A DNA stretch of 31,852 bases from a virus. The position numbers and the translations under genes were made by a program. Every line of letters begins with the position of its first letter. The stretch's first letter is position 1. Of the stretch, positions 4,633 to 25,696 are shown one piece after another. A model generated the notes under the pieces. That model did not search any database, was not told where the DNA came from, and worked only from the letters and a program-made list of their open reading frames with translations. Where the stretch lies: the IMG/VR virus record IMGVR_UViG_3300022752_003900, positions 1 through 31,852 of that record; one strand, written 5' to 3'.

Positions 4633-4956
4633 TTACACACTGAAACTACTGCCGCATCCGCAGGTAGTTTGGGCATTGGGATTTTTTATGCTAAAATTAG
4701 CGCCTTCTAGATCGTCTTTGAAGTCAATTTCTGCGCCCTGCAAGTACTGCATACTCATGCTATCAACCAAAACTTTAAAATTGCCTATTGGAACTTCCCA
4801 ATCGTCCTCCGCCTGGTCTTCATCAAAGGTAAAACCATAACTGAAACCAGAGCAACCGCCGCCTTGAACGAAGGTCCTTAGTTTAAGATTAGGATTATTT
4901 TCTTCTTTAAGTAATTCTATAATCTTATATTGGGCAGGAGTTGTAATGTTTATCAT
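4633..4956 (-). CDS. erpA: A-type Fe-S carrier protein, ErpA-like
   Basis: This 107-aa protein of the HesB/IscA family matches ErpA best. It has [19 protein letters not shown] around the first cluster cysteine (C35) and ends [10 protein letters not shown] with the other two ligands at C99 and C101. The blocks [20 protein letters not shown] and [12 protein letters not shown] are the typical middle of ErpA. A-type carriers take [4Fe-4S] clusters from a scaffold to target enzymes; E. coli ErpA serves isoprenoid enzymes, among others. The gene diverges from iscU, with 48 bases between the two start codons. ATG 4956 is the only sensible start because the next Met is far inside the domain. The N-terminus lacks the short extension of many bacterial ErpA proteins but all three cysteines are intact. 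Confidence 0.93.
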
Positions 4957-4957
4957 G

Positions 4958-4987
4958 TTGATATTTATCTGGTAAATATGCTATACT
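4958..4987 (+). promoter_or_regulatory. Extended -10 sigma70-type promoter for the iscU operon
   Basis: TTGATA (4958-4963), an 18-base spacer and TATACT (4982-4987) preceded by TG (4979-4980) make a good extended -10 promoter. The transcript would begin near 4994, at the ribosome site AAGGAG, so the leader would be only about 11 bases. Confidence 0.6.
4962..4969 (-). promoter_or_regulatory. GATAAATA box five bases before the erpA start codon
   Basis: GATAAATA on the minus strand differs from the T4 late consensus TATAAATA at one position. Only five bases separate it from ATG 4956, so a T4-like late start would fall on the A of ATG. It overlaps the spacer of the divergent iscU promoter, so the two directions could compete. 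Confidence 0.4.
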
Positions 4988-5004
4988 TACAAAAAGGAGC
5001 TTGT

Positions 5005-5397
5005 ATGGCGTATTCAAAACAGGTTATTGATCACTATGAAAACCCCCGGAATGTAGGTTCATTTAGCAAAGATGATACCAGTGTTGGCACAGGTATGGTA
5101 GGTGCACCTGCTTGCGGGGATGTTATGAAATTACAAATAAAGGTAGATGACCAAACTGGTATCATCACTGATGCTCGCTTCAAGACGTACGGTTGTGGTT
5201 CGGCGATTGCAAGTAGTTCAATAGTTACAGAATGGGTCAAAGGAAAAACTCTAGACCAAGCTGGGTCAATCAAAAATACTCATATCGCTGAAGAATTGGC
5301 TCTCCCGCCGGTGAAGATACATTGCAGCATTTTGGCCGAAGATGCCATCCGTGCAGCCATCGCTGACTACAAACAAAAACATGATCTCGTTAACTGA
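5005..5397 (+). CDS. iscU: Fe-S cluster assembly scaffold IscU
   Basis: This 130-aa protein is nearly collinear with bacterial Isc[21 protein letters not shown], then [32 protein letters not shown] and [12 protein letters not shown]. The three cluster ligands are C37, C64 and C107, and the assisting aspartate is D39. The LPPVK motif (100-104) that HscA recognises is intact although no hscA is present here. IscU receives sulfur from IscS and iron, builds [2Fe-2S]/[4Fe-4S] clusters and passes them to carriers. The start is ATG 5005, with AAAAGGAG just upstream and an exact match to the IscU N-terminus; an upstream in-frame ATG at 4930 would overlap erpA and adds no homologous sequence. It leads the operon iscU-iscA-unknown-SGNH. 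No iscS, hscA, hscB or fdx lies in the window. Confidence 0.96.
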
Positions 5398-5707
5398 AAC
5401 AGCCGCAGAACGTGTTAAAGCCAACTTGGCTAAACGTGGTAAGGGATTAGGCATACGTGTAGGAGTAAAAACTACAGGATGTAGTGGCCTGGCCTATGTG
5501 CTAGAATATGTGGATAACCCAACATTGACTAGAGATCAGTTTGTCTATGATAGTTACGGTGTCAAAGTTTATGTAGACGGTAAAAGCCTTGTGTATGTTG
5601 ATGGGTTAGAAATGGATTGGGTCAAGCAAGGGCTCAATGAAGGCTTTGAATTTCGCAATCCTAACGAAAAAAATCGTTGTGGTTGTGGTGAAAGCTTCAA
5701 TGTATAG
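5381..5707 (+). CDS. iscA: A-type Fe-S assembly protein IscA
   Basis: This 108-aa protein matches IscA across its length: [20 protein letters not shown], then [18 protein letters not shown] with ligand C34, [11 protein letters not shown], and [12 protein letters not shown] before the terminal CGCGESFNV with ligands C100 and C102. It carries clusters or iron between IscU and target enzymes. It starts at ATG 5381, inside the last 17 bases of iscU, so the two are probably translationally coupled; an upstream in-frame ATG at 5342 only adds residues read from within iscU. IscA and ErpA in one short region give this genome two distinct carriers. The match to the IscA rather than the ErpA subgroup is clear from the CGCGESFNV ending and the RGKG segment. 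Confidence 0.95.
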
Positions 5708-8528: not shown

Positions 8529-9374
8529 TCAGGTCTTATTGCAAGAAATATAGAAATCTAAATATAGCTCTAGATTATCCTGTTTGTACATTACTATTTT
8601 ATCAAAGCAGGTAAAATTCATAATTTCTCTAGGCCATTCTGGAAATTTCATAGGTGATTTGTTTAAAATTTCAGTATGAATGGCGTTTCCTAATTCATAA
8701 ACATAAGGGTTAATGCCAAAATCTAAATGTGGTTGAATAATATTCTTTAATAGCCAGATAGTCATCTTTATAGACGGATGTCCGTCCGGATTTATGTTAC
8801 CTTGGTCGTTAACTTGGTAGGTTTCTACAATCCCTTCCTTAAGTGCTGTAGGCCAATAAGGTAAACTAAAATATTTTTCTTTAAGCTCTAATAATTTCAT
8901 ATGTTTAGGATAAGCTTCGATAGTGAAATTAACACCCCTAGGTAATTCTTCTGAATCGCGAAAGTTAAATAAATCAAACGCATCAAAAAAATTAAATTTT
9001 ATATTTTTTAATTTAAGGAGATCTATAATAGCGTTTATGTAATTAAATGTCTTATAGATAGAACCGTCGGGCAAAATATATTGATTTAAAACATCAAAAT
9101 CCTTGTGAAACGCTAAGTTTCCAGGAGTACTCCATTGAGTATGATCTAGGCAGCAGTCCATCCTATAAAAACTAGTCCACATCACCATTATATGATCTTT
9201 AGAATTAATTTCGAATTGTTTTAAATCATTAACAATGCTATGAAAAATAAATTCGTTTCCTGCGCCAGCTTGACCTCTGTTGTACACTATATCAAAGTTT
9301 TTTGTTAAAAACGAAGGCCAAGTGGGCCACAGGTAAGATGTAAAACTACATCCGTAGGTAAACAAACGTTTCAT
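8529..9374 (-). CDS. SGNH-like hydrolase (copy 2)
   Basis: This 281-aa protein starts MKRLFTYGCSFTSYLWPTW, with the block I Ser in GCSFT. A Gly/Asn block reads NRGQAGAGNEFIFHS (residues about 33-47), and block V is NINPDGHPSIKMT near residue 196, giving the Asp and His of an SGNH triad. The N-terminal 200 residues form the enzyme core and the C-terminal 80 are an unrecognised extension. The ATG overlaps the stop of the upstream B12-type radical SAM gene (ATGA), so the two are probably coupled. These enzymes usually act as esterases or acyltransferases on sugars. The presence of blocks I, III and V makes this one of the better candidates here for an active enzyme. Confidence 0.65.
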   Translation of the reverse strand: MKRLFTYGCSFTSYLWPTWPSFLTKNFDIVYNRGQAGAGNEFIFHSIVNDLKQFEINSKDHIMVMWTSFYRMDCCLDHTQWSTPGNLAFHKDFDVLNQYILPDGSIYKTFNYINAIIDLLKLKNIKFNFFDAFDLFNFRDSEELPRGVNFTIEAYPKHMKLLELKEKYFSLPYWPTALKEGIVETYQVNDQGNINPDGHPSIKMTIWLLKNIIQPHLDFGINPYVYELGNAIHTEILNKSPMKFPEWPREIMNFTCFDKIVMYKQDNLELYLDFYISCNKT

Positions 9375-11304
9375 AATTTAGTTATCCACGCCTTTCCAAA
9401 ATTACGGCGCCTTGCAAAAAATATTTGTTCACAGAACCGCTGTAAGCCCATTTTCTTATCTTCTGGAAATTCCAGCTCAATCTTAGCCATTGATGATATC
9501 TCTTCGTCATGCTGAACATATCCTAGTACATTATTATTAAGGGCAATTGTTTTAGGGTATTCATTAATCTTTTTATGATCTATAAGGAAGGTTCTTTGTA
9601 AAAGCATCAAATCATTTAGCAAATCCTTGTCAAGATTATATTTTGATAAGAATTTTTCTATAACATCAAAAACATGTGAGTGTTTATCTTCGCTATGAAG
9701 GTATATCATAGTACTGTGAATAAGGTTCCATCCGTGTATCTCAATACCTCGAACTAGCTCGTGATCAATCCTACCGTTTTGTGTCCAGTTTTTATAATGT
9801 TCTTCTATTCTATCTATTTCTTTTTTAAACCAATCATCGTTCTTAATAAAATCAAATAGGTCATTGTAAAATTCACTGTATGGTAAGTCATGTGCTTTAT
9901 GTAAATAACGGCTTATAAAATTAGTCATACCATTAATATGAAAAGTATTCATAAACCAGCTAAAGATTTGAGCTCTAATCATGTCCTCAAAAGGCATGTC
10001 TTTGGTAGATGTAATAACTTCGATACCTTCTTTAACTTCATGTTCATTGTAAGTGCCTACAAGATAGTCATAAACTATGGTGCTTTGAATTTTATATAAT
10101 TTCTTTTGTAAAAGATTCATTTCGGCATTTTCTAATAACTGTGCTTGGTAGACAGTGATACCGGTATGATTACCAGCTTCATATAGTTTATAAAAGTTTT
10201 GTTTCCATGTTTCTAAACTTTCACCGGGTAAGCCTAAAATTAATTCAGTATATAGAGGAATATTATATTCTTCACAAAGATCGAAAACTTCTTGTATCTT
10301 ATTAATCTCCAGATTTTTACGTTTAATAATTTCTAAAACATTATCATCCATGCTTTGTACGCTGAGATTTAATCCTATCTTAGCACCACCGTCATAGATT
10401 AATTTTTTAACAATATCAACAACTTCCTTCTTTTGGTTTTTAGCCCAAGCTATGGTATATGCTTTAGGATTTCCGTAAATTTTCTGGACCTCGATCAATT
10501 TATCCGCTATAAGGTTATCTCTTTCTGGAAATATGCCAAAATTAGCATCAGTTAGGCTAACGAAATCGCAGGCATTTTTACCGATCCATTCTAATTCTGC
10601 GTAAACTCTTTCTAAATTAAATTTCTTAACCTTGTTATAAGTCAAGCTACCCCAATCACAAAATGTACAAGCATATGGGCAACCTCTGTTAGTTTCTAAT
10701 GTAGCGTTCCACCGTACTTCAGGAAACTTCTTCATGAGTTTATCAAATATTTCTATTAGGTAAGGGCTCGGGATACTGTCTAGATCATCAATCCTTACTC
10801 CGTTTCCTGTATCAATAGTTTCTGTGTTATTGTTAACTAAAAGACCTGGTATATCCGTGTAATTATTAGCATTTTCTATATGCTTTTCTAATATTTTCCT
10901 AAAACTTATTTCCCCTTCCATTTTTACACAAATATCTATATAAGGAAACTTCTTGAAGAATTCTGGTTTCTCAATTGGGTATTCAGGACCGCCTACTACG
11001 ATAAAGATGTTAGGGTTTACTTTTTTTAACTCTCTTGCTAAAACATTATTATAATTACGATTCCACACATAGGTGCTAAATCCTACAATGGCGCAATCTT
11101 TAAGAAGATCTACCACCTGTTCAATTGGATCCCTTCTCCATACGAAATCACCTAATTCAAAATGTTCTACAATATGATCAAACTGCTGTACATAGCTCCA
11201 TAGTACAGCAGGGCTGTAGGGAAGGTAGTAAGCATTGAACTCCTTCGGTCCTTGCTGGAAGTTAGGATTTACAAAACTGACTTTTTTTTTAGATTAGATT
11301 GCAT
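9371..11304 (-). CDS. B12-binding-type radical SAM protein, frame broken at an A9 tract
   Basis: The readable frame from GTG 11116 gives 581 aa with CPYACTFC (C146, C150, C153) for the radical SAM [4Fe-4S] cluster and VVGGPEYP ahead of it from a cobalamin-binding-like Rossmann domain. The same frame continues upstream as VSFVNPNFQQGPKEFNAYYL and further domain sequence, but no start codon exists there: it runs back to the TAA of the preceding SGNH gene. A start is available at ATG 11304 (MQSNL) in another frame, and the two join if the nine A's at 11282-11290 are read as ten. The full protein would then be about 644 aa. Either RNA polymerase slippage on A9 joins them, or the run is one base short through sequencing error or mutation. 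Such proteins methylate unactivated carbon or do other radical chemistry; the substrate is unknown. Confidence 0.8.
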
Positions 11305-12172
11305 TGTTTTTGATAAATTGTGCTAATTCTTTACCAATTTCTTTATAGCCTTCTAGAGTGGGATGAGCACCTTCGCAATTGGTAAGATATTTAGTAGGCC
11401 AAGTATTTTTGCTATAAGGTTCATAAAACCCTCTCCAGTCTTGTTCTGGAATAAATCCATCTTTTCTTACTAACAGCTGAACGAATGCTTCATAGTCTAC
11501 AAAATTGTGTATATAATTATTCCAATTTACCTTGTCAAATAGTCCAGGCGCATACTGCTTAAACCACCCAACAAACCCTAAATCAGCATTACGGTGATTA
11601 AATGAATTAGCGAGAACAAACTTATAACCATGAGATTTTGCCCACATCTGTGCGTTTAAAACTGCGAATAAAGTATTCATGGCACAAAAAGATTCACTGT
11701 AAAGATCTAAAGCGTAGGCATCTTGTAGGCCTTTTAATTGCCCACTGTTCATAGGAAAGGGCCAAAGTGTCCAGTACTTGTAATGTTTGTAAATGTTGTT
11801 ACTGTAATAATCGTCTTGTTTATTTGTATTTAAAGGACTAGGGCTAATATAATCAAACCTTTCAACGCCTGACAGCATAAAAACAATAATGCCTGTGCTA
11901 TTATTCCAATCTATCTTGTCACAAAAGTAAAGTTGGGTGTAAGCAGCAGAGTTCCCTATACCCCTTATACCTAAATTTACAGACTCATGGTCTGAAAAAT
12001 GGTCCCTGGCTAATACGTTGACCCAACTGTTTTCATGTTCCATTTTTCTTAGATAGTAATCATCACGACCTCTAACTTGAACTCGACCGCCGTGATCTTC
12101 CCAGACCTTTTCAGAATATCCACCCTCACCCTGGGTCCAACTACAGCCTAACCCCACAATGTATTTCTTCAT
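11294..12172 (-). CDS. SGNH-like hydrolase (copy 3)
   Basis: This 292-aa protein begins MKKYIVGLGCSWTQGEGG, with the nucleophile Ser in GCSWT. A Gly/Asn block, VNLGIRGIGNSAAYTQLYF, follows near residue 65, and the C-terminal block NCEGAHPTLEGYKEIGKEL holds the probable catalytic His. These three blocks fit the SGNH family more clearly than copies 1 or 5. The ATG directly follows the TAA of a 32-aa ORF that itself starts with a GDS motif. The stop codon is in the same frame as the following radical SAM protein, and that gene's likely ATG lies inside this gene's last codons, so translation is probably coupled. An esterase or acyltransferase acting on a glycan is the best general guess. Confidence 0.7.
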   Translation of the reverse strand: MKKYIVGLGCSWTQGEGGYSEKVWEDHGGRVQVRGRDDYYLRKMEHENSWVNVLARDHFSDHESVNLGIRGIGNSAAYTQLYFCDKIDWNNSTGIIVFMLSGVERFDYISPSPLNTNKQDDYYSNNIYKHYKYWTLWPFPMNSGQLKGLQDAYALDLYSESFCAMNTLFAVLNAQMWAKSHGYKFVLANSFNHRNADLGFVGWFKQYAPGLFDKVNWNNYIHNFVDYEAFVQLLVRKDGFIPEQDWRGFYEPYSKNTWPTKYLTNCEGAHPTLEGYKEIGKELAQFIKNNAI

Positions 12173-17185: not shown

Positions 17186-19427
17186 TTTTTTTAAAACCTA
17201 TCTTATCTATAGGAATTGCAAACATCATTTCTTTTTCTGGAAGCTGCCCCGATGATTTAGTAGATACTTCAACCTTAAAATCTTGATAATTACTCCAATC
17301 ACCTGTTCCTTTATAATGATGTTTAAAAGAAAAATCTATAGTTTGATTAAGGAATAATTCTTCTTTAAGCAGATCTCCAAATTGTGTATTATCTCTTCCT
17401 GTATCAATGGACCAATTAGGTTTGGCTAATCTTCTTGCTCTAGTGGCGGTATTACTTTGTATTCTACTATAATCCTGTGCGTAAAACGGACCTTCGCGTT
17501 CTTTTTCTCTAGATTTATGGTCTTCATCTGGATTTCTCATATGTTGATTGAAATCATATTTAAAATCTGCCTGCCATTTTCCTTCATCATCAATAATAAA
17601 TTTAATGTCGGCTGTATAAAGACCGGGACCATACTGTGTGCCAAATTCCATTAAATCTATATCTGGATTAAATTTTATTTCAGCAAAATAGCCTCCCCTT
17701 GTTTTCCACAAAATCCTCAATAAAGGCCATATTTCATTTACTAGACTATCTGCAAACGGATTAATATTAGGCTTTATAATGTCATAATTAAATTTTTCAT
17801 AATCTACATAATTGGCTTTCTTTGGATTTAAAAACATTATGTTATAATGCCTGCCAGGAAGACTATCTCTGATTGGGTAACCAAATTTATGGTCACATAA
17901 TCCTAAAATCATATCAAGAAAAGTATAAAAAGACTTTACTCTTGTCATCACATGAGTTCCACCTTTTTTAAAATCTTTAGTAATCCAATGTCCGTGATAT
18001 TTGTGATACAACAAATTAAACTTATCAGGATTTTGTCCAACAATGGTTTCTGGTCCTAGCCCAAAACCTACCCCCGCTCCGACATTATTAATATTATTAT
18101 TTCTGTTTCGCCATAAAAATGTCATGCTATCCGCAAAGTCTTGCTTATCTTCTGTAGGGAAACCTATTATCCAATTAGTTGATGCCCAAATCCCTACCTC
18201 TTTACCATCCTTAAAATTTTGCTCCATTTCGGCAATTGTCACTCCTTTATCCATATCATCTAAAACTTTTTGGCTACCAGATTCAATTCCGTAATTAAGC
18301 ACGATACATCCGCCCTTTTTAAGGTCTTTAAAATATTCTAAATCCATTCGACCATCACATCTTGCGTATCCTGTCCAATGAATTTTTAATCCTTTAGCAT
18401 CCACAGCCTTGCAAAATGCTCTAAGTTCTTTTAGGTTGCCATTTACAAGACTATCTATAAACCATATTACATCAGTTCCTTTGTTGTAATACAGCCATTC
18501 TATTTCAGTAATTAAATCTACGGCCTGTCTTTGACGATATTTCCAAAAATGAGTTTCTTCACAAAAGGTACACTTGGCTGTACATCCTCTACTTATTTCA
18601 CTATTCACACCGTTTGGAATCTTATATTGGCTAAAGTCAATACTTTCATAATCGGGCATTGGTAGACCGTTGATGTTGATTCTTTGATCAACAGGTTGTG
18701 ATATATACTGCGGCTCTGAATGCTCTATTTTATTTTCAACTTCTTCTAAAATCTTTAACAACGCTAACTCTCCCTCGCCGTTAACCACATAATCATAGTA
18801 AGGTTGAATTTGGAACCAACTCTTTTGTACATTACTTCCGCCTACCGCAATTTTCAAATGGGGCATTCTACGCTTTAATTCTTGGCACATCCACTTTGTA
18901 GGTTCTTCGCTAATATAGTAAACACTAAAACCCACAATATCTGGGTTTATTTCTTCAATCTCATCACAGGCTTGTAAAAGTAAGGGCTCAAGGACAGGAT
19001 GGATAGTTTCCAAATAAGTATTTCCTAACCAGTGCCAACTACTAGTAGAGTCCCATAATCTAAATGGTAACATTTTCTTAGGATGCCATGCAGAAACAAA
19101 TTCATTATGAGCACGTATATTTAGATCTATAATCTTTGTTTCATATCCAGCGGTTTTAGCTATGCCGCTTAACCTAGCAAGGTTGAATGGAGGCATTTCT
19201 GGCGCCCATTCAGGACATAAAACTAATACAAGTTTAGTATTTCTTGTTTTATAATTAAGATATACTGGAGTCATGTTAGACTGTTGTACTTTTTTTGCAT
19301 AAGGCGCTATAGCATCCATCATTGATCGATGTCTAAGGTCTGCAACATCTTCGGTAGGCCTTTGCTTAGGCTTAAAGTTCGGATTTGCTAGGCTTCTTAA
19401 CGAATATTCCAATTTATTATTCCTCAA
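17175..19427 (-). CDS. Large B12-binding-type radical SAM protein
   Basis: This 750-aa protein has an N-terminal extension (1-60), a cobalamin-binding-like Rossmann domain (about 65-235, with VLVLCPEWAPEMPPFNLARL and VGFSVYYISEEPTKW then VGGSN), and a radical SAM domain whose cluster cysteines are C282, C286 and C289 in SRGCTAKCTFCEETHFW. A C-terminal 250-300 residues include RSFYTFLDMILGLCD-like sequence and a long charged tail, neither recognised. No DxHxxG motif is visible, which is common in this class. Typical class B methylases are 450-600 aa, so the tail is unusual. It is followed by an SGNH gene with an 11-base overlap and preceded by a SPASM-like radical SAM gene. Methylation of a carbon or phosphorus centre in a small molecule, lipid or peptide is the family precedent; the substrate is unknown. 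Confidence 0.85.
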   Translation of the reverse strand: MRNNKLEYSLRSLANPNFKPKQRPTEDVADLRHRSMMDAIAPYAKKVQQSNMTPVYLNYKTRNTKLVLVLCPEWAPEMPPFNLARLSGIAKTAGYETKIIDLNIRAHNEFVSAWHPKKMLPFRLWDSTSSWHWLGNTYLETIHPVLEPLLLQACDEIEEINPDIVGFSVYYISEEPTKWMCQELKRRMPHLKIAVGGSNVQKSWFQIQPYYDYVVNGEGELALLKILEEVENKIEHSEPQYISQPVDQRININGLPMPDYESIDFSQYKIPNGVNSEISRGCTAKCTFCEETHFWKYRQRQAVDLITEIEWLYYNKGTDVIWFIDSLVNGNLKELRAFCKAVDAKGLKIHWTGYARCDGRMDLEYFKDLKKGGCIVLNYGIESGSQKVLDDMDKGVTIAEMEQNFKDGKEVGIWASTNWIIGFPTEDKQDFADSMTFLWRNRNNNINNVGAGVGFGLGPETIVGQNPDKFNLLYHKYHGHWITKDFKKGGTHVMTRVKSFYTFLDMILGLCDHKFGYPIRDSLPGRHYNIMFLNPKKANYVDYEKFNYDIIKPNINPFADSLVNEIWPLLRILWKTRGGYFAEIKFNPDIDLMEFGTQYGPGLYTADIKFIIDDEGKWQADFKYDFNQHMRNPDEDHKSREKEREGPFYAQDYSRIQSNTATRARRLAKPNWSIDTGRDNTQFGDLLKEELFLNQTIDFSFKHHYKGTGDWSNYQDFKVEVSTKSSGQLPEKEMMFAIPIDKIGFKKNET

Positions 19428-20385
19428 CTAGTCTTTTAGGAATTAGAATATCAGTGCCGCAATGACAATGCTGTTTACGACAGATAACAGATCTAGGACC
19501 AATACCTTCAATATCTTCTAAAATATTGCCGGTATAACCTCCCTGTCCGCAACTTGCAAAGCTAACAGCACCGGCTGGATTTATAAAAATTGAATCTCCT
19601 ACATCACACTCCCATCCGCTAAAAAAATTTTGACGATTTATAATAACATCGTTGCTGTTAGTTGCTGATTTAGTCTTATCACTAAATCGAGATATACTAA
19701 TACAGGAATTTTCTCTTATTGGTTTAGGAACAGTAAAGTTCATGTCTACATTATGTTCTTGTAAAAACTTAATTTTATCATTATCTTTATATTCCCAAGG
19801 TCCTGCATTAATAGTCATCTCATCAAATAACGGCGTCCACTCTATAAAATAGTTAGGAAGCTTTATTTTCAGCGATTTACCAAAATCTACCACTTCCCAA
19901 AATCTTTCATCGTGCATCAACATCTTGCAACTTAAATAATTTACCTTATCGCATAAAAACATAGCATTTTCTGTATATTTCTTTTTGTTTGAAAATTCAA
20001 TATGAAAACTGGCCACAATGTCATCAAACAATTTATAATGTTCCTGCCACCACTTTAATGGACGACTAAGGTTTGTGTTAACTGCTAGAGTAGAAAGTGG
20101 TACTTCTTTTCTTAGCCATTCGCTTATAGGAACAAGATTATTCCACATAGTAGGTTCACCGCCACTGAAGAAAAATTTAAAATGTTTATAACCTTCGTCT
20201 TTATATCTATTAATTATCGTATCTAAATTCTGTAGATATAAACCTAAATTACCATTATTTTTTTCAGTACCGGACCAATTCCCCGGATTACAATAACTAC
20301 ATTTAAAGTTACAAAAATTATTAACTTGCCAAGTTACAGCAAGATATTTGTCTTTGGGATAAATTTCTATTAGCTTTTTGCCCAT
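19417..20385 (-). CDS. Radical SAM protein with SPASM-like C-terminal cysteines
   Basis: This 322-aa protein has the cluster motif CNFKCSYC at residues 25, 29 and 32, the SAM-binding FFFSGGEPTMW, and a C-terminal region with several cysteines (WECDVGDSIFINPAG, then FASCGQGGYTGN and ICRKQHCHCGTD) that would fit auxiliary Fe-S ligands of a SPASM or twitch domain. Such enzymes modify peptides, tRNA or small molecules. The start is ATG 20385, 16 bases inside the next radical SAM gene, and the stop overlaps the following B12-type gene by 11 bases. The auxiliary domain is C-terminal here, opposite to the order in the four genes upstream. Confidence 0.85.
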   Translation of the reverse strand: MGKKLIEIYPKDKYLAVTWQVNNFCNFKCSYCNPGNWSGTEKNNGNLGLYLQNLDTIINRYKDEGYKHFKFFFSGGEPTMWNNLVPISEWLRKEVPLSTLAVNTNLSRPLKWWQEHYKLFDDIVASFHIEFSNKKKYTENAMFLCDKVNYLSCKMLMHDERFWEVVDFGKSLKIKLPNYFIEWTPLFDEMTINAGPWEYKDNDKIKFLQEHNVDMNFTVPKPIRENSCISISRFSDKTKSATNSNDVIINRQNFFSGWECDVGDSIFINPAGAVSFASCGQGGYTGNILEDIEGIGPRSVICRKQHCHCGTDILIPKRLVEE

Positions 20386-21656
20386 TCATAAACCTCTTTT
20401 AATTCCGGAATAATATCTAATATATTTTCTTTTCTAATTTTATCTGTTTCCTCATTCGCTTTGATAAATTCCAAAATTCCTTCTTTGTTTGGTGATCCAG
20501 ATTGGATATTATAAACCACCATCTTAAATGCATTTTTTAAATCTCTATTAAATTCATATTTTTCAATAGATTGGTTCCATCTTTTTGTAACTTTATCTTT
20601 TACATGCTGTGGTAAAATTTGAACGTTTGCCCACCAAGGATAGGTTAATAAATTAAACCTTGCATTAGAATACCATCGAGGATTTTTAAAATCTAAAAGA
20701 CCTTCTGCAACTAGCTTATCAAAAAAATCTGGAAATAAAAAAACATTCCATATACTAATAGTAGGAGTAATTTGAAAATCTGCATGTGGTACCTGTTCTC
20801 TTAGTTTTTTAATATTGTCTACTATTTTATTCCATTTCGTACCTTTTCTGAGTAATTCAGCCTGCCTTCCTTCAGCATCAAGACTAGCCCAGATCTTTAT
20901 ATTAGGAAACTTTTTCCAAAGTTTAATAAGATCCCGATTTTTGTACTTCAAAACACTAAAATTGGTGGTGTATGTCAGCTCTACCTGTTCTGTGAGATGA
21001 TTTTCAATCCAATAATCTAAACATTCATAATGTTCCGGAGTTATGATAACCTCACCGCCTGCAAAGTACACTTCAGTAACATCTTTCAAATAAGGTTTTA
21101 ATTTTGTCATAAAAACTTGATCTTCATTGCTATTGACAACAATAGTTTTCATCCCAAAAAACTTTTCTAACTGCTCGTATCCCCATTTTTCTTTAACATA
21201 CTCTTCAGCCCATTGGCTAGAACATCCTGGACCACAGCTTCTGCATTTCATATTACAAAGATTACTAAACCTAACATCCATGTACTTCATTTTAAACTCG
21301 TCGATACTTCCGTCATCGTTCGTCTTTGAAATTATATCGAGATATTCAAATCCTCTCCTCTTGTTATGACTTTGACGCATGGTCCATGTGCCTAGTAATT
21401 CTAAATCATAACATCGTTTACATTCAGCACTGGGCTTATCGTCGAGCATGTCTCTACGTAGGCGCTTGAAGTCTACACCATTCATCATTTCGATGATAGA
21501 CTCGTCTTTCTTCAGATAGCCGACTGGCTTATCACTATCAGCTATACAGCAAGGCATAACTTTGCCGCTAGGCCAAGAATGGAAATGAACCCACGGTAAT
21601 ACACAAAAATGTTTGCCAGTTTTAAGCAATTCTTTAATTTTATCTTTTTCAATCAT
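20370..21656 (-). CDS. N-terminal-twitch radical SAM protein (copy 1)
   Basis: This 428-aa protein carries an auxiliary-cluster-like module before the radical SAM core: HFCVLPWVHFHSWPSGKV with C18, MPCC at 36-37, then ECKRCYD (C79, C82). The core begins with NLCNMKCRSCGPGCSSQWAE, ligands C134, C138 and C141, and later has VYFAGGEVIITPEHYE as the SAM-binding GGE. This module order matches a group I recall as twitch domain-containing radical SAM proteins with an N-terminal twitch. It overlaps its neighbours by 8 and 16 bases and is paralogous to the two following entries. Their true substrate has not been established to my knowledge. Confidence 0.88.
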   Translation of the reverse strand: MIEKDKIKELLKTGKHFCVLPWVHFHSWPSGKVMPCCIADSDKPVGYLKKDESIIEMMNGVDFKRLRRDMLDDKPSAECKRCYDLELLGTWTMRQSHNKRRGFEYLDIISKTNDDGSIDEFKMKYMDVRFSNLCNMKCRSCGPGCSSQWAEEYVKEKWGYEQLEKFFGMKTIVVNSNEDQVFMTKLKPYLKDVTEVYFAGGEVIITPEHYECLDYWIENHLTEQVELTYTTNFSVLKYKNRDLIKLWKKFPNIKIWASLDAEGRQAELLRKGTKWNKIVDNIKKLREQVPHADFQITPTISIWNVFLFPDFFDKLVAEGLLDFKNPRWYSNARFNLLTYPWWANVQILPQHVKDKVTKRWNQSIEKYEFNRDLKNAFKMVVYNIQSGSPNKEGILEFIKANEETDKIRKENILDIIPELKEVYEWAKS

Positions 21657-22890
21657 TTAATGTCTCTAACGAGGCAATCTCGGGGAAAGTTTTAAAAAAA
21701 TCTTCGTTCCTTATCCTATCCAAATATCGTGTGTGTTTGAAAAATTGGTCCTTGGCTTCGGCCCATGTATCTTTGGCACTGGCAAAATTTATAGCGTTAG
21801 TGAGCAACTCATTTAATTTTGGATGAGTTTCTCCATGAGAACTGATCAATTGCAGGTTTTTTTCTTTTGCTTGTTCTTTTAAAACCTTAGGCAAACTAGT
21901 AGCCGAATAGTATAAAGGATTAACTGCAAGGTACAGAGTTGTATGCCAGTCTCCGTCTCTAATCAATTTTTTATCCTTCATGTAAGTATAAAACTCAGTC
22001 AACGTAAGGTAATTAAAAAGACTGAATACAGTATTAATTTGAAAACTAACAAAATCAAGATTACGCAAGGTTATTAAGTTACTTTCTACTTCACCCCAAT
22101 TTGTACCATGACGTAGCCATTCCGCTCGTTCACCGTAGTGGTCGATTGAACAGCTTAATTCAATGCGCTTGAAATGTTTCCATAGTTTAAGAATATCATG
22201 GTTTTTATATTTCATGTTACTAGCATTAGTATTATATCTTAAAACTTTATCTGTCTTACCTCTGCGTATCATTTCTTCTAACATAATATAATGTTCGTCA
22301 GTGATTAATGGTTCGCCACCAGCAAAGTAAGCGATTTCGATATGATCAATGTGTTCTAGAACTTCCTCAATTAATGTACCTTTGCCGTCATCGGCTTGAA
22401 AAAGGATAGGAAACTTTTCTCTACCAGGTAGAAGACGTTCTTCTGCAGCCCATTGACTACTAAAATCAGATCCACAAGTCCTACATTTGAAGTTACAGAT
22501 ATTTCTAAAGCGAATATCAAAATATAGCATTTTAAATTCAGGTAAAGATCCATCCTTATTAGTGGTATTAACTAACTCGTCAAAGTGCTGACCAAAATTA
22601 TCAATTGAATACTTTCTAAAACTATGAGGGCCTGCTTCTTCGTGCTTATAACAAAAATTGCAATAGTCAGTCTTATCACCATTTAACATATTCAAACGAA
22701 GCTGTTTCATACTATCGCTATTAAAGGCCTGCTTTAGAGAACTATTTTTTACATTGGCAAATGTTCCATCGTAGCTGGTTGTACAACATGGATATATATC
22801 ACCAGTCGGAGTAACATTAAGATGCGTCCAAGGAAACATACAAAAAACTTTAGACTCTTTTAATAGATAATCTTTATTAAATTCAGTCAT
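21649..22890 (-). CDS. N-terminal-twitch radical SAM protein (copy 2)
   Basis: This 413-aa protein has the same layout as copy 1: FCMFPWTHLNVTPTGDIYPC (C17, C35, C36), YCNFCYKHEEAG (C77, C80), and radical SAM cysteines C132, C136 and C139 in NICNFKCRTCGSDFSSQWAA, followed by EIAYFAGGEPLITDEHYIML. The middle link HSFRKYSIDNFGQHFDELVN is shared with copy 3 but not with copy 1, so copies 2 and 3 are the closest pair. It overlaps both neighbours by 8 bases. Tandem duplication of whole genes followed by divergence is the simplest origin. Confidence 0.88.
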   Translation of the reverse strand: MTEFNKDYLLKESKVFCMFPWTHLNVTPTGDIYPCCTTSYDGTFANVKNSSLKQAFNSDSMKQLRLNMLNGDKTDYCNFCYKHEEAGPHSFRKYSIDNFGQHFDELVNTTNKDGSLPEFKMLYFDIRFRNICNFKCRTCGSDFSSQWAAEERLLPGREKFPILFQADDGKGTLIEEVLEHIDHIEIAYFAGGEPLITDEHYIMLEEMIRRGKTDKVLRYNTNASNMKYKNHDILKLWKHFKRIELSCSIDHYGERAEWLRHGTNWGEVESNLITLRNLDFVSFQINTVFSLFNYLTLTEFYTYMKDKKLIRDGDWHTTLYLAVNPLYYSATSLPKVLKEQAKEKNLQLISSHGETHPKLNELLTNAINFASAKDTWAEAKDQFFKHTRYLDRIRNEDFFKTFPEIASLETLND

Positions 22891-24163
22891 TATTTTCTTC
22901 TAACAAATTTGCTAGTTCAGGAAAAACTTTTGAAAAATTCTCATTTCTAATTTTATCTACTCTTATAGTCTCTCTTCTAAACTCTGCTTTTTGTTCTTCC
23001 CAGATACTAGAAGCGTCAATCCAGTTGATAGCACTGTTTATTTGATCTATATGAGCATTTTTAAAATTATTATCTATTAATAGTTGTTTCGTTCTTTCTA
23101 AGCTCTGCTTACCTTTATATTTATATTCTTTAGGTAACGCATGTGTGCTTAGATATTCTGGACTGCTCATAGGGTATAACATAAACACTCGGCTGTTACA
23201 AGAATATAATCTGTTTGTAATTAAATATTTGTAGAATTCGTCTATAGTTAAAAGATTGAATAAACTTAAAACCGTATTGATTTGTAAATGAATAAACTTT
23301 TGGTTTTGTACCAATTTGAAATTACTTTCGATAACATTCCATTCAGTGCCATGTCTAATGTATTCAGCACGTTTTCCAAAATGGTCAATACTGGCATAAA
23401 TGTCAATTTTATTCTTAAAATTTTTCCATAAATTTAAGATGTCTTTGTCTTTATACTTCAAATTACTTAGATTAGTGTTATATCTTAATTTAATATCAGT
23501 ACGATTACGACGAATCATTTCTTCCAAAAGAATATAGTGTTCTTCTGTAATTAACGGCTCACCACCGGCAAAGTAAGCAGCATCCATATAATCAATTTGT
23601 TCTATAACATCATATATTAATTGTTTATTCTTATTTTTTGGTAAAGGAGAAAAATGAATGGTCGGATGTTTATGCCTTTTATTTTCCTGCTCCCATTGAG
23701 AACTGTAATTCTGGTCGCAAGTTCTACATTTAAAGTTACAAATATTACTAACCCGCATATCGAAATAACGCATTCTAAATTCTTTTAGACTGCCATCATC
23801 ATTTGTCTGCTCAATCACTTCTTCATAATATTGACCAAAGTCTTTTATACTTGCATTTCTAAAACTTGATATTCCAGCATCTTCATGTTGGTAGCATATT
23901 TTACATTCTTTATTTCTTACCCCAGCAAGCATGTCTAGCCGAAGTTTTTTCATTTTTTCGCTATTAACAAGTTCTTTGAGATTAGAAGTCAAAGAACTTC
24001 CTACTCCATCGTCTGTAGTACAACTATTAGAGATACAACATGGTGCTGCTTTACCTGCAGGAATAGTATGTATATGTATCCATGGGAGTATACAAAAGGT
24101 ACCAGATACATTTTTTATATCTTTTAAATGGACTATCTTCCCTGGCACAACTTGCTGGCTCAT
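22883..24163 (-). CDS. N-terminal-twitch radical SAM protein (copy 3)
   Basis: From ATG 24163 (MSQQVVPGKIVHLKDIKNVS) the protein is 426 aa, with FCILPWIHIHTIPAGKAAPC (C24, C42, C43), CKICYQHEDAG and NICNFKCRTCDQNYSSQWEQ as the radical SAM site, then AAYFAGGEPLITEEHYILLE. An upstream in-frame ATG at 24247 would add 28 residues unlike the sister proteins and lying over a small ORF in another frame, so the inner start is preferred. There is no strong ribosome site before it; coupling to the upstream small ORFs is possible, since a TGATG and an ATGA overlap connect them. It is the closest paralogue of copy 2. Confidence 0.85.
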   Translation of the reverse strand: MSQQVVPGKIVHLKDIKNVSGTFCILPWIHIHTIPAGKAAPCCISNSCTTDDGVGSSLTSNLKELVNSEKMKKLRLDMLAGVRNKECKICYQHEDAGISSFRNASIKDFGQYYEEVIEQTNDDGSLKEFRMRYFDMRVSNICNFKCRTCDQNYSSQWEQENKRHKHPTIHFSPLPKNKNKQLIYDVIEQIDYMDAAYFAGGEPLITEEHYILLEEMIRRNRTDIKLRYNTNLSNLKYKDKDILNLWKNFKNKIDIYASIDHFGKRAEYIRHGTEWNVIESNFKLVQNQKFIHLQINTVLSLFNLLTIDEFYKYLITNRLYSCNSRVFMLYPMSSPEYLSTHALPKEYKYKGKQSLERTKQLLIDNNFKNAHIDQINSAINWIDASSIWEEQKAEFRRETIRVDKIRNENFSKVFPELANLLEENND

Positions 24164-24182
24164 TGTAAAAAACCAACTAACA

Positions 24183-24266
24183 TCAGTCTGGGTTCCAAAG
24201 CATGAATGGCAACTTCGGATTAAGTGCAATTTCATTAGGTACAACATTATTCACTTGTTTAATCAT
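24183..24266 (-). CDS. Possible 27-aa peptide ORF upstream of radical SAM copy 3
   Basis: ATG 24266 has AAAGG eight bases upstream and encodes 27 residues, starting MIKQVNNVVPNEIALNPKLP and ending in FMLWNPD, stop TGA 24183-24185. It is preceded by an exact T4-late box (24300-24307) and an 8-bp inverted repeat. It is rich in Asn and Pro, has no cysteine and has no obvious leader or core boundary. It might be a leader peptide for coupling, a small protein, or a radical SAM substrate. No homologue is recognised; translation itself is inferred from the ribosome site. Confidence 0.35.
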   Translation of the reverse strand: MIKQVNNVVPNEIALNPKLPFMLWNPD

Positions 24267-24278
24267 ATACTAACCTTT

Positions 24279-24315
24279 AAGTATGTATTTAATGAATTTT
24301 ATTTATAACATACTT
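24279..24315. repeat. 8-bp inverted repeat flanking a late-promoter box
   Basis: AAGTATGT (24279-24286) and ACATACTT (24308-24315) are a perfect inverted repeat separated by 21 bases, which contain TATAAATA on the minus strand. It could be an operator around the promoter or a weak hairpin; the A/T-rich arms make a strong terminator unlikely. Confidence 0.45.
24300..24307 (-). promoter_or_regulatory. Exact T4-type late promoter box inside the cluster
   Basis: TATAAATA on the minus strand is a perfect match to the T4 late consensus, in one of the few true gaps of the 20-kb cluster. It leaves 33 bases to ATG 24266, so a normal leader with the AAAGG ribosome site is possible. It could drive the radical SAM genes apart from the upstream glycosyltransferase. 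Confidence 0.55.
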
Positions 24316-24316
24316 T

Positions 24317-25696
24317 TTAACGCAATGACGCACATTCTTTAAAAAATTGTTTCATTTCAGGGAAAGTTTTAATAAAATTGGTATTACGTCTGTGATCAAG
24401 TTCGGTAAACCAATTAAAAAAATCATGTCTACCTTCTATAATTTTTGATTGGGAATAATTTGAAGATTCCATATATTTAACTACTCTACGAAACCTTTCA
24501 AATTCCACAATACTGAAACTATAAGGATCGTTGTCGTCAGTATGTTTTTCAATAAATTCTAATGCTTCGTGCATATAGGGCATGAATTCCTGTTTAGGCA
24601 AGATGTTCATATCATATTGTAAGGGCTCTTTGAGATAGGGTGTATCAAATCTTACCATCTGATATTGAGAACTCTTATTAAATTTATTATACTTTTTCCT
24701 CCATTTCAAAATCTGTTGAAGTAATTTTTGAAAGGTTGTAACAGAAAGAATATTAAACGTAATCATAAAACTTATTGGATATCCCACCTGTGTAAGATAT
24801 CTATCTATATTAGATTCCCAAAGCTCAAGATCCAATCCTGTTCTGATATACTCAGCTCTAGGTCCCCATGTATCTATACTAGTGAACAATTTAAAGGCTC
24901 TGATATTATCATTTTCAATAAGATGATTGACATTGGTAATGAATTTATCCACCAAGGCTGTTTTAACACCTAGGTTACTGTTAACATTGAGCTCTAATCT
25001 AGGAGCAGGATTATTTTTTAAATCGTCAAATAATCTCCAAGTGCTGGTATGCATGAGAGGTTCTCCGCCAGTGATACGTAAGATGGTTAGTTCATTTCTA
25101 AGATTAGGCCACCATTTCCACCATGCATCTACATACGGATTTGATTCCTCCCGTTCATATAGCTTAAACCAATCTATATCACATCGATGATTATTCACCG
25201 AGGTAACAGGACCATGCTCTCGAATTTCATTATAAAATCTACTACTGGCTTTGGGGTGACAATAACCGCATTTAAAATTACACTCATTTCCAAAACTTAT
25301 TTCGACATATTCAGGATTGACATCATTTTTAGCACTCCCTTTGGCAATTTTGAGTCTATCTGGCGTATAGATGGCTGCACTCTTAATATGCCTATCACTG
25401 ATATAATCCTTTCCCATATTTTCTATGTTCCAACAGTATCGGCATCCTGAAGTTTGAATACCTTTTTTCATCTCTTGACGTTCTACTTTTTTGTGCTCTG
25501 TATTATGCAGAGCACTGGGATTTAATTTTATCTCATCAATTTCAATCGCATGGGGAGCAGGATGATAACAACTATGATTTTCGCCAGTCTGTAAATACAA
25601 GGTAACATGAAACCATTTAGCCAAACAAAAAGTCGGACTAACGTTATTAATTAAAGGTATAACCTTTTGAATCCTTTGATGATCAGTATCACTCAT
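24317..25696 (-). CDS. Divergent N-terminal-twitch-like radical SAM protein (copy 4)
   Basis: This 459-aa protein keeps the family layout but with altered N-terminal ligands: TFCLAKWFHVTLYLQTGENH (C24), then HSCYHP with one Cys (C43) where the other copies have CC, and SGCRYCWNIENMG (C85, C88). The radical SAM site is NECNFKCGYCHPKASSRFYN with C139, C143 and C146, and LRITGGEPLMHTSTW binds SAM. CNFKCGYC is closer to classical radical SAM enzymes than the CRTC/CRSC of copies 1-3. The gene starts 8 bases inside the end of the repeat glycosyltransferase gene. The missing cysteine may mean a different or absent auxiliary cluster, so it may act on a different substrate. Confidence 0.8.
   Translation of the reverse strand: MSDTDHQRIQKVIPLINNVSPTFCLAKWFHVTLYLQTGENHSCYHPAPHAIEIDEIKLNPSALHNTEHKKVERQEMKKGIQTSGCRYCWNIENMGKDYISDRHIKSAAIYTPDRLKIAKGSAKNDVNPEYVEISFGNECNFKCGYCHPKASSRFYNEIREHGPVTSVNNHRCDIDWFKLYEREESNPYVDAWWKWWPNLRNELTILRITGGEPLMHTSTWRLFDDLKNNPAPRLELNVNSNLGVKTALVDKFITNVNHLIENDNIRAFKLFTSIDTWGPRAEYIRTGLDLELWESNIDRYLTQVGYPISFMITFNILSVTTFQKLLQQILKWRKKYNKFNKSSQYQMVRFDTPYLKEPLQYDMNILPKQEFMPYMHEALEFIEKHTDDNDPYSFSIVEFERFRRVVKYMESSNYSQSKIIEGRHDFFNWFTELDHRRNTNFIKTFPEMKQFFKECASLR

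Follow-up and report, generated by a model that had tools for sequence, protein, structure and literature searches.

An out-of-frame start in a cobalamin-binding radical SAM gene

The window analysed here, that is, the whole stretch of DNA under study, was a 31.9-kb record of an uncultivated virus. Its minus strand encoded a B12-binding radical SAM enzyme of the TokK/CysS/KedN5-like type, whose conserved frame occupied positions 9371-11281 with Val 11281 as the first codon. The first-pass annotation had described the gene as B12-type radical SAM, and domain searches bore this out. Namely, PF02310 at residues 55-131 and PF04055 at residues 198-361 each scored above the Pfam cut-off, and the location of the B12-binding domain N-terminal to the radical SAM domain, together with a CxxxCxxC motif, was that of class 1 cobalamin-dependent radical SAM enzymes. 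The three cysteines of the motif (C202, C206 and C209) were invariant in the 18 aligned proteins. The best solved relatives in the PDB were TokK (7kdx, E 5.9e-83) and CysS (9n1b, E 3.6e-48). The match to the NCBIfam KedN5 model (NF033712) had 249.8 bits (E 4.5e-74) and did not reach the curated cut-off of 700; judging by this score, the enzyme is a relative of the KedN5 subfamily and not a member of it. Similar to the cobalamin-dependent radical SAM C-methyltransferases of the TokK/CysS/KedN5 type, it had an N-terminal B12-binding domain and the CxxxCxxC cluster motif, and an invariant Trp74 was found at the place expected for Trp76 of TokK, which sits under the cobalt (PMC13331322). Unlike those enzymes, it was encoded by a phage and its start codon was out of frame.

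The gene belonged to a phage operon (9371-28070) in which two B12-binding radical SAM enzymes were encoded together with several radical SAM/SPASM or twitch-domain proteins (19417-25696) and an epimerase. The second B12 radical SAM gene was called from TTG 19427; its relatives suggested TTG 19412 (window 19412-19427). The window also carried NifU-like and Fe-S-biosynthesis (PF01521) genes at 4930-5707, which possibly supply clusters to the radical SAM enzymes of the phage.

The gene immediately upstream (11294-12172, minus strand) ended with a TAA at 11296-11294 and had no hit in a Pfam search. From its motifs GCSWTQG...HPTLEGY we take it to be a putative SGNH hydrolase. It was in the same reading frame as the radical SAM gene. 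Read-through of its TAA into that frame was considered, and nothing was found in its favour. The enzyme frame (VSFVNPNFQQGP, from 11281) had no ATG, GTG or TTG between this TAA and a GTG at 11116-11114, the first canonical start found by a start-codon scan. An ATG at 11304-11302, in an 11-nt overlap with the end of the upstream gene, was one base out of frame with respect to the otherwise intact radical SAM gene. Without a shift, this ATG opened an ORF of 11 codons (MQSNLKKKSVL*, 11269-11304) that ended at a stop codon at 11271-11269.

The 23 nt from the ATG through the base preceding Val 11281 were ATGCAATCTAATCTAAAAAAAAA, and one base added anywhere between the ATG and 11281 joined the two frames. 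Several features were packed into this interval. A run of nine As on the minus strand (T9 on the plus strand) at 11282-11290 corresponded to three Lys codons (AAA AAA AAA) in the frame of the enzyme. Directly before it, at 11300-11291, was a perfect 5-bp tandem repeat (AATCT AATCT), whose origin by a duplication of five bases would produce the observed shift. Finally, an A_AAA_AAG heptamer at 11287-11281 was in the frame of ATG 11304, which is a classical motif of -1 ribosomal shifting in bacteria (PMC4066793). The first-pass annotation had reported the A9, the out-of-frame ATG reading MQSNL and the lack of any start upstream of GTG 11116 in a frame running into the preceding stop, and all of these were correct base for base. 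It had joined the frames by one A added to the run; this did restore the frame, and other insertion points worked equally well. Therefore, the A run was not the only possible site of the break. The tandem repeat had not been mentioned in that annotation.

The A9 was the sole homopolymer of nine or more in the window, and the base composition predicted about two. Thus, the run by itself was unremarkable, and what deserved attention was its position exactly inside the 23-nt interval. Tandem repeats of this kind occurred in 0.7-1.9% of the window stretches of this size, a figure computed after the site was seen.

Conservation of the start and of the N-terminus

In all 78 distinct relatives with a complete N-terminus, an in-frame start (76 ATG and 2 TTG) preceded the counterpart of Val 11281 by 3-7 codons. 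In the eight closest viral and genome loci that shared the upstream gene and carried the junction in full, the start preceded the end of the upstream stop codon by exactly 8 nt; ATG 11304 preceded it by 11 nt and was in the same phase. Overlaps of 8 or 11 nt recurred at several junctions of the operon, one of the 11-nt cases (TTG 19427) being doubtful. Since every relative started a few codons before this Val and an overlap of 11 nt fitted the operon, we conclude that ATG 11304 is the ancestral start. The earlier proposal of a true start at this ATG followed by a single break of the -1 type was thereby strengthened.

The codons between the break and GTG 11116 were under a constraint similar to that on the remainder of the gene. 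In comparison to one relative (L002), the 55 codons before the GTG had pN 0.115 and pS 0.98, and the rest of the gene had pN 0.181 and pS 0.87; pS was saturated in this pair, so no pN/pS ratio is given. Moreover, 17 residues invariant in the 18 aligned proteins were located before the GTG, and this conservation suggested that residues 1-55 are important for the fold. The gene aligned to its relatives over the full length with pN far below pS, as expected for a single lesion in an otherwise intact and constrained gene. Since the N-terminal codons were as constrained as the rest and contained the invariant residues, the loss of frame was likely to be either recent or not real.

These observations made it very improbable that translation begins at GTG 11116, or at a non-standard in-frame start, with the similarity further upstream being a relic. 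The GTG was the first canonical start in the frame. However, a protein made from it would lack the 17 invariant residues as well as the beginning of the B12-binding domain, it would leave a gap of 177 nt in an operon of overlapping genes, and the codons upstream of the GTG were still under purifying selection. Automatic gene callers will nevertheless begin the protein at this GTG and lose part of the B12-binding domain from the annotation.

The relatives were also A-rich near the start, with Lys codons and A runs of up to eight. A run of nine or more at the start of this gene was found in none of the 78 distinct relatives, and neither was a split frame. Thus, a conserved programmed site at this gene was not supported.

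The nearest relatives were about 70-74% identical in protein. Neither an exact-pattern DNA search spanning the junction nor tblastn-type scans with the enzyme and with a second gene of the operon retrieved a near-identical record of the same virus, though such a record may have been out of reach of these searches. A scan with the upstream protein had no matches. Among annotated phages, the nucleotide search was empty, and the protein search produced weak partial matches with about 26% identity. The sole match in the bacterial genome collection (L082) was a contig of 7.1 kb from the bin Bacillales bacterium UBA5632; it may be a mis-binned phage contig.

Origin of the frame break

A broken frame, a conserved start, an intact gene body, a tandem repeat and a slippery motif were all present at this site. 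We infer that the break was probably caused by a single indel right after the start codon, either real or introduced by assembly, and that slippage on the A9 or a -1 shift on A_AAA_AAG could leak through it. The indel could be a duplication of the 5-bp AATCT unit or a change of one A; a loss of one A and a 5-base duplication produce an identical shift. Removal of one AATCT copy would give MQSKKKV, with the ATG six codons before Val and within the 3-7 range of the relatives. Addition of one A would give MQSNLKKKV, with the ATG eight codons before Val and outside of this range. The repeat was rare and only the six-codon distance agreed with the relatives, so the sequence fitted a duplication somewhat better, and we leaned mildly toward it; the chance consideration for the start distance, like the figure for the repeat, was made after the site was seen. 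On the other hand, single-base indels in runs of 9-10 As are generally far more common than 5-bp duplications, and therefore the loss of an A was still quite possible. If the duplication was the lesion, then the A9 may be simply three intact Lys codons, akin to the Lys-rich starts of the relatives. Slippage, mutation and homopolymer error had previously been offered as the explanations, all tied to the A9. The frame break behind them was real in the record, but the A9 was not its only candidate site, and the AATCT duplication had to be added as a fourth candidate.

An assembly or sequencing error, with ATG 11304 in frame in the actual phage DNA and an ordinary gene behind it, was a serious contender with somewhat less than an even chance. 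It would agree with a gene body that was intact and under purifying selection, with the ordinary start in every relative and with the source of the window, a contig of an uncultivated virus; moreover, homopolymers are error-prone. No other long ORF of the window looked frameshifted in comparison to its relatives, however, and the tandem repeat offered a mutation that did not involve a homopolymer. Since such an error is one form of the single indel, the probabilities of the two overlap. The choice between mutation and assembly error was left undecided, as the records searched included none of the same species that could separate them.

Proposed expression of the enzyme

If the break is present in the phage DNA, then zero-frame translation from ATG 11304 would yield a peptide of 11 residues. 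For the full-length enzyme to be made, the mRNA would have to carry one A more (or two fewer), or the ribosome would have to shift by -1. RNA polymerase slipping on the A9 could produce a minority of mRNAs with a changed number of As, from which the full-length enzyme would be translated; alternatively, ribosomes could slip by -1 on A_AAA_AAG with the same outcome. The enzyme would then most likely be made at a reduced but non-zero level, and the phage would be running an enzyme on leaky slippage.

Many bacterial genomes have previously been reported to show selection against slippage at runs as long as nine As (PMC1088944). In a 2018 study, slippage by the E. coli RNA polymerase was weaker than that by the T7 RNA polymerase and favoured T runs (PMC6260861), so a modest yield would be expected here. 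The site resembled dnaX of Thermus thermophilus and the bacterial 9A/9T slippage genes (PMC1088944) in having nine As on the sense strand, where a changed number of As alters the frame. In those cases, the run lies within a gene that is expressed, and it is either conserved or experimentally shown, whereas in the window it was five codons after the start and was not shared by the relatives. Accordingly, of the features of programmed transcriptional slippage, a run of at least nine As at the frame junction (11282-11290) was present, and conservation was absent (0 of 78).

For ribosomal shifting, the heptamer at 11287-11281 had the X_XXY_YYZ form of a -1 programmed frameshift and was in phase, and, when stimulators are present, A_AAA_AAG ranks with the most efficient -1 motifs known from E. 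coli (PMC4066793). The heptamer and its phase were those of the A_AAA_AAG sites of IS elements and E. coli (PMC4066793). Unlike those sites, the window had neither a Shine-Dalgarno-like element nor a convincing hairpin nor conservation: reading of the upstream sequence did not reveal GAGG, GGAG or AGGA, and the downstream folding was ordinary (z -1.24). Shifting assisted by stimulators was rejected on these grounds.

A recurrent A run in related phages

Scanning of related loci for A runs revealed a repeated pattern outside the window. It was located where a UDP-glucose/GDP-mannose dehydrogenase-like gene ends (UGDH, identified by matches in Pfam and PHROG). A run of at least eight As was present at 15 of 82 distinct UGDH junctions. 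At eight of these 15, a second ORF of more than 360 codons (ORF-B) followed in the -1 frame and lacked a nearby start codon. Each of the eight junctions of this class had the run, and the class was absent among the 67 run-less junctions. The runs of A8-A10 were located at the end of the UGDH ORF in L105 and L108 (both 8809-8818), L115 (8879-8888), L095 (7862-7870), L103 (8798-8806) and L143 (8826-8833), and also in L249 and L251. The other run-bearing junctions included in-frame fusions of UGDH and ORF-B (L207, L273 and L234), a +1 arrangement (L193) and a -1 arrangement whose first ATG followed after about 50 nt (L204 and L262). The two ORFs were also fused in frame at 18 run-less junctions, and at most of the remaining UGDH junctions the second ORF had its own start.

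A scan of 434 A runs of at least seven inside ORFs, covering the first 2.1 Mb, yielded six broken frames that continued without a start; each of them was at this junction and in the -1 direction. When the run was mapped on the UGDH tree, about ten changes were needed, and at least four of them were forced by well-supported branches. Moreover, the ORF-B proteins of five run-bearing viruses were 31-47% identical to the first one, yet the run persisted. ORF-B had no match in Pfam, PHROG or PDB. These loci are also assemblies, but the recurrence at one junction in divergent viruses argued against assembly error. Thus, the A8-A10 run is likely a programmed slippage site recurring in divergent phages. 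The folds downstream of the junction were not consistently strong and runs were present in in-frame fusions as well, which favoured slippage of the RNA polymerase over ribosomal shifting. We found no report of transcriptional slippage in a phage UDP-glucose dehydrogenase in the open-licence literature, and the junction looks like an undescribed programmed site.

This pattern had a bearing on whether slippage in the window is programmed as well, with the A9 (RNA polymerase) or A_AAA_AAG (-1 ribosomal) acting as a selected switch that sets the amount of the enzyme. The exact -1 relation at the A9, the heptamer in the right frame and a downstream frame without a start codon would all fit such a switch. 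The eight distinct UGDH/ORF-B junctions with A8-A10 and a start-less -1 ORF indicated that the expression machinery of the related phages tolerates or uses such sites. The related loci and the window together had 1,423 distinct long ORFs, of which 28 had no start in the first 30 codons; those of the 28 that began at A8-A10 were all at the UGDH/ORF-B junction or in a broken copy of ORF-B (L253), with the window as the exception. In other words, almost every other start-less long ORF beginning at such a run in the 3.1 Mb of related phage DNA was an apparent programmed site. The window site had the outward form of the same device at a different gene, and for this reason we rated programmed use as unlikely rather than lower still. 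Against it were the lack of a run or a break at this gene in all 78 relatives, the missing Shine-Dalgarno-like stimulator with only ordinary downstream folding, and a zero-frame product of just 11 residues, which left no second product to balance. The missing conservation argues against a conserved switch but would be compatible with one confined to this virus. The narrower proposal, that the A9 is a selected switch for the B12 enzyme and a new use of the UGDH/ORF-B device of its relatives, was slightly more doubtful again.

Our readings of the window site and of the UGDH/ORF-B junction alike were drawn from sequence. On this basis, the junction was the stronger and more interesting lead, and a recurrent A8-A10 joining a UDP-glucose dehydrogenase to a start-less second protein matters more than the enzyme gene. 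A further run was seen at L072:7174-7183, where a nucleotidyltransferase-like ORF (…AEDLKKKTGVLGTSGCR) had A10 close to its end and the -1 frame offered a short alternative C-terminus.
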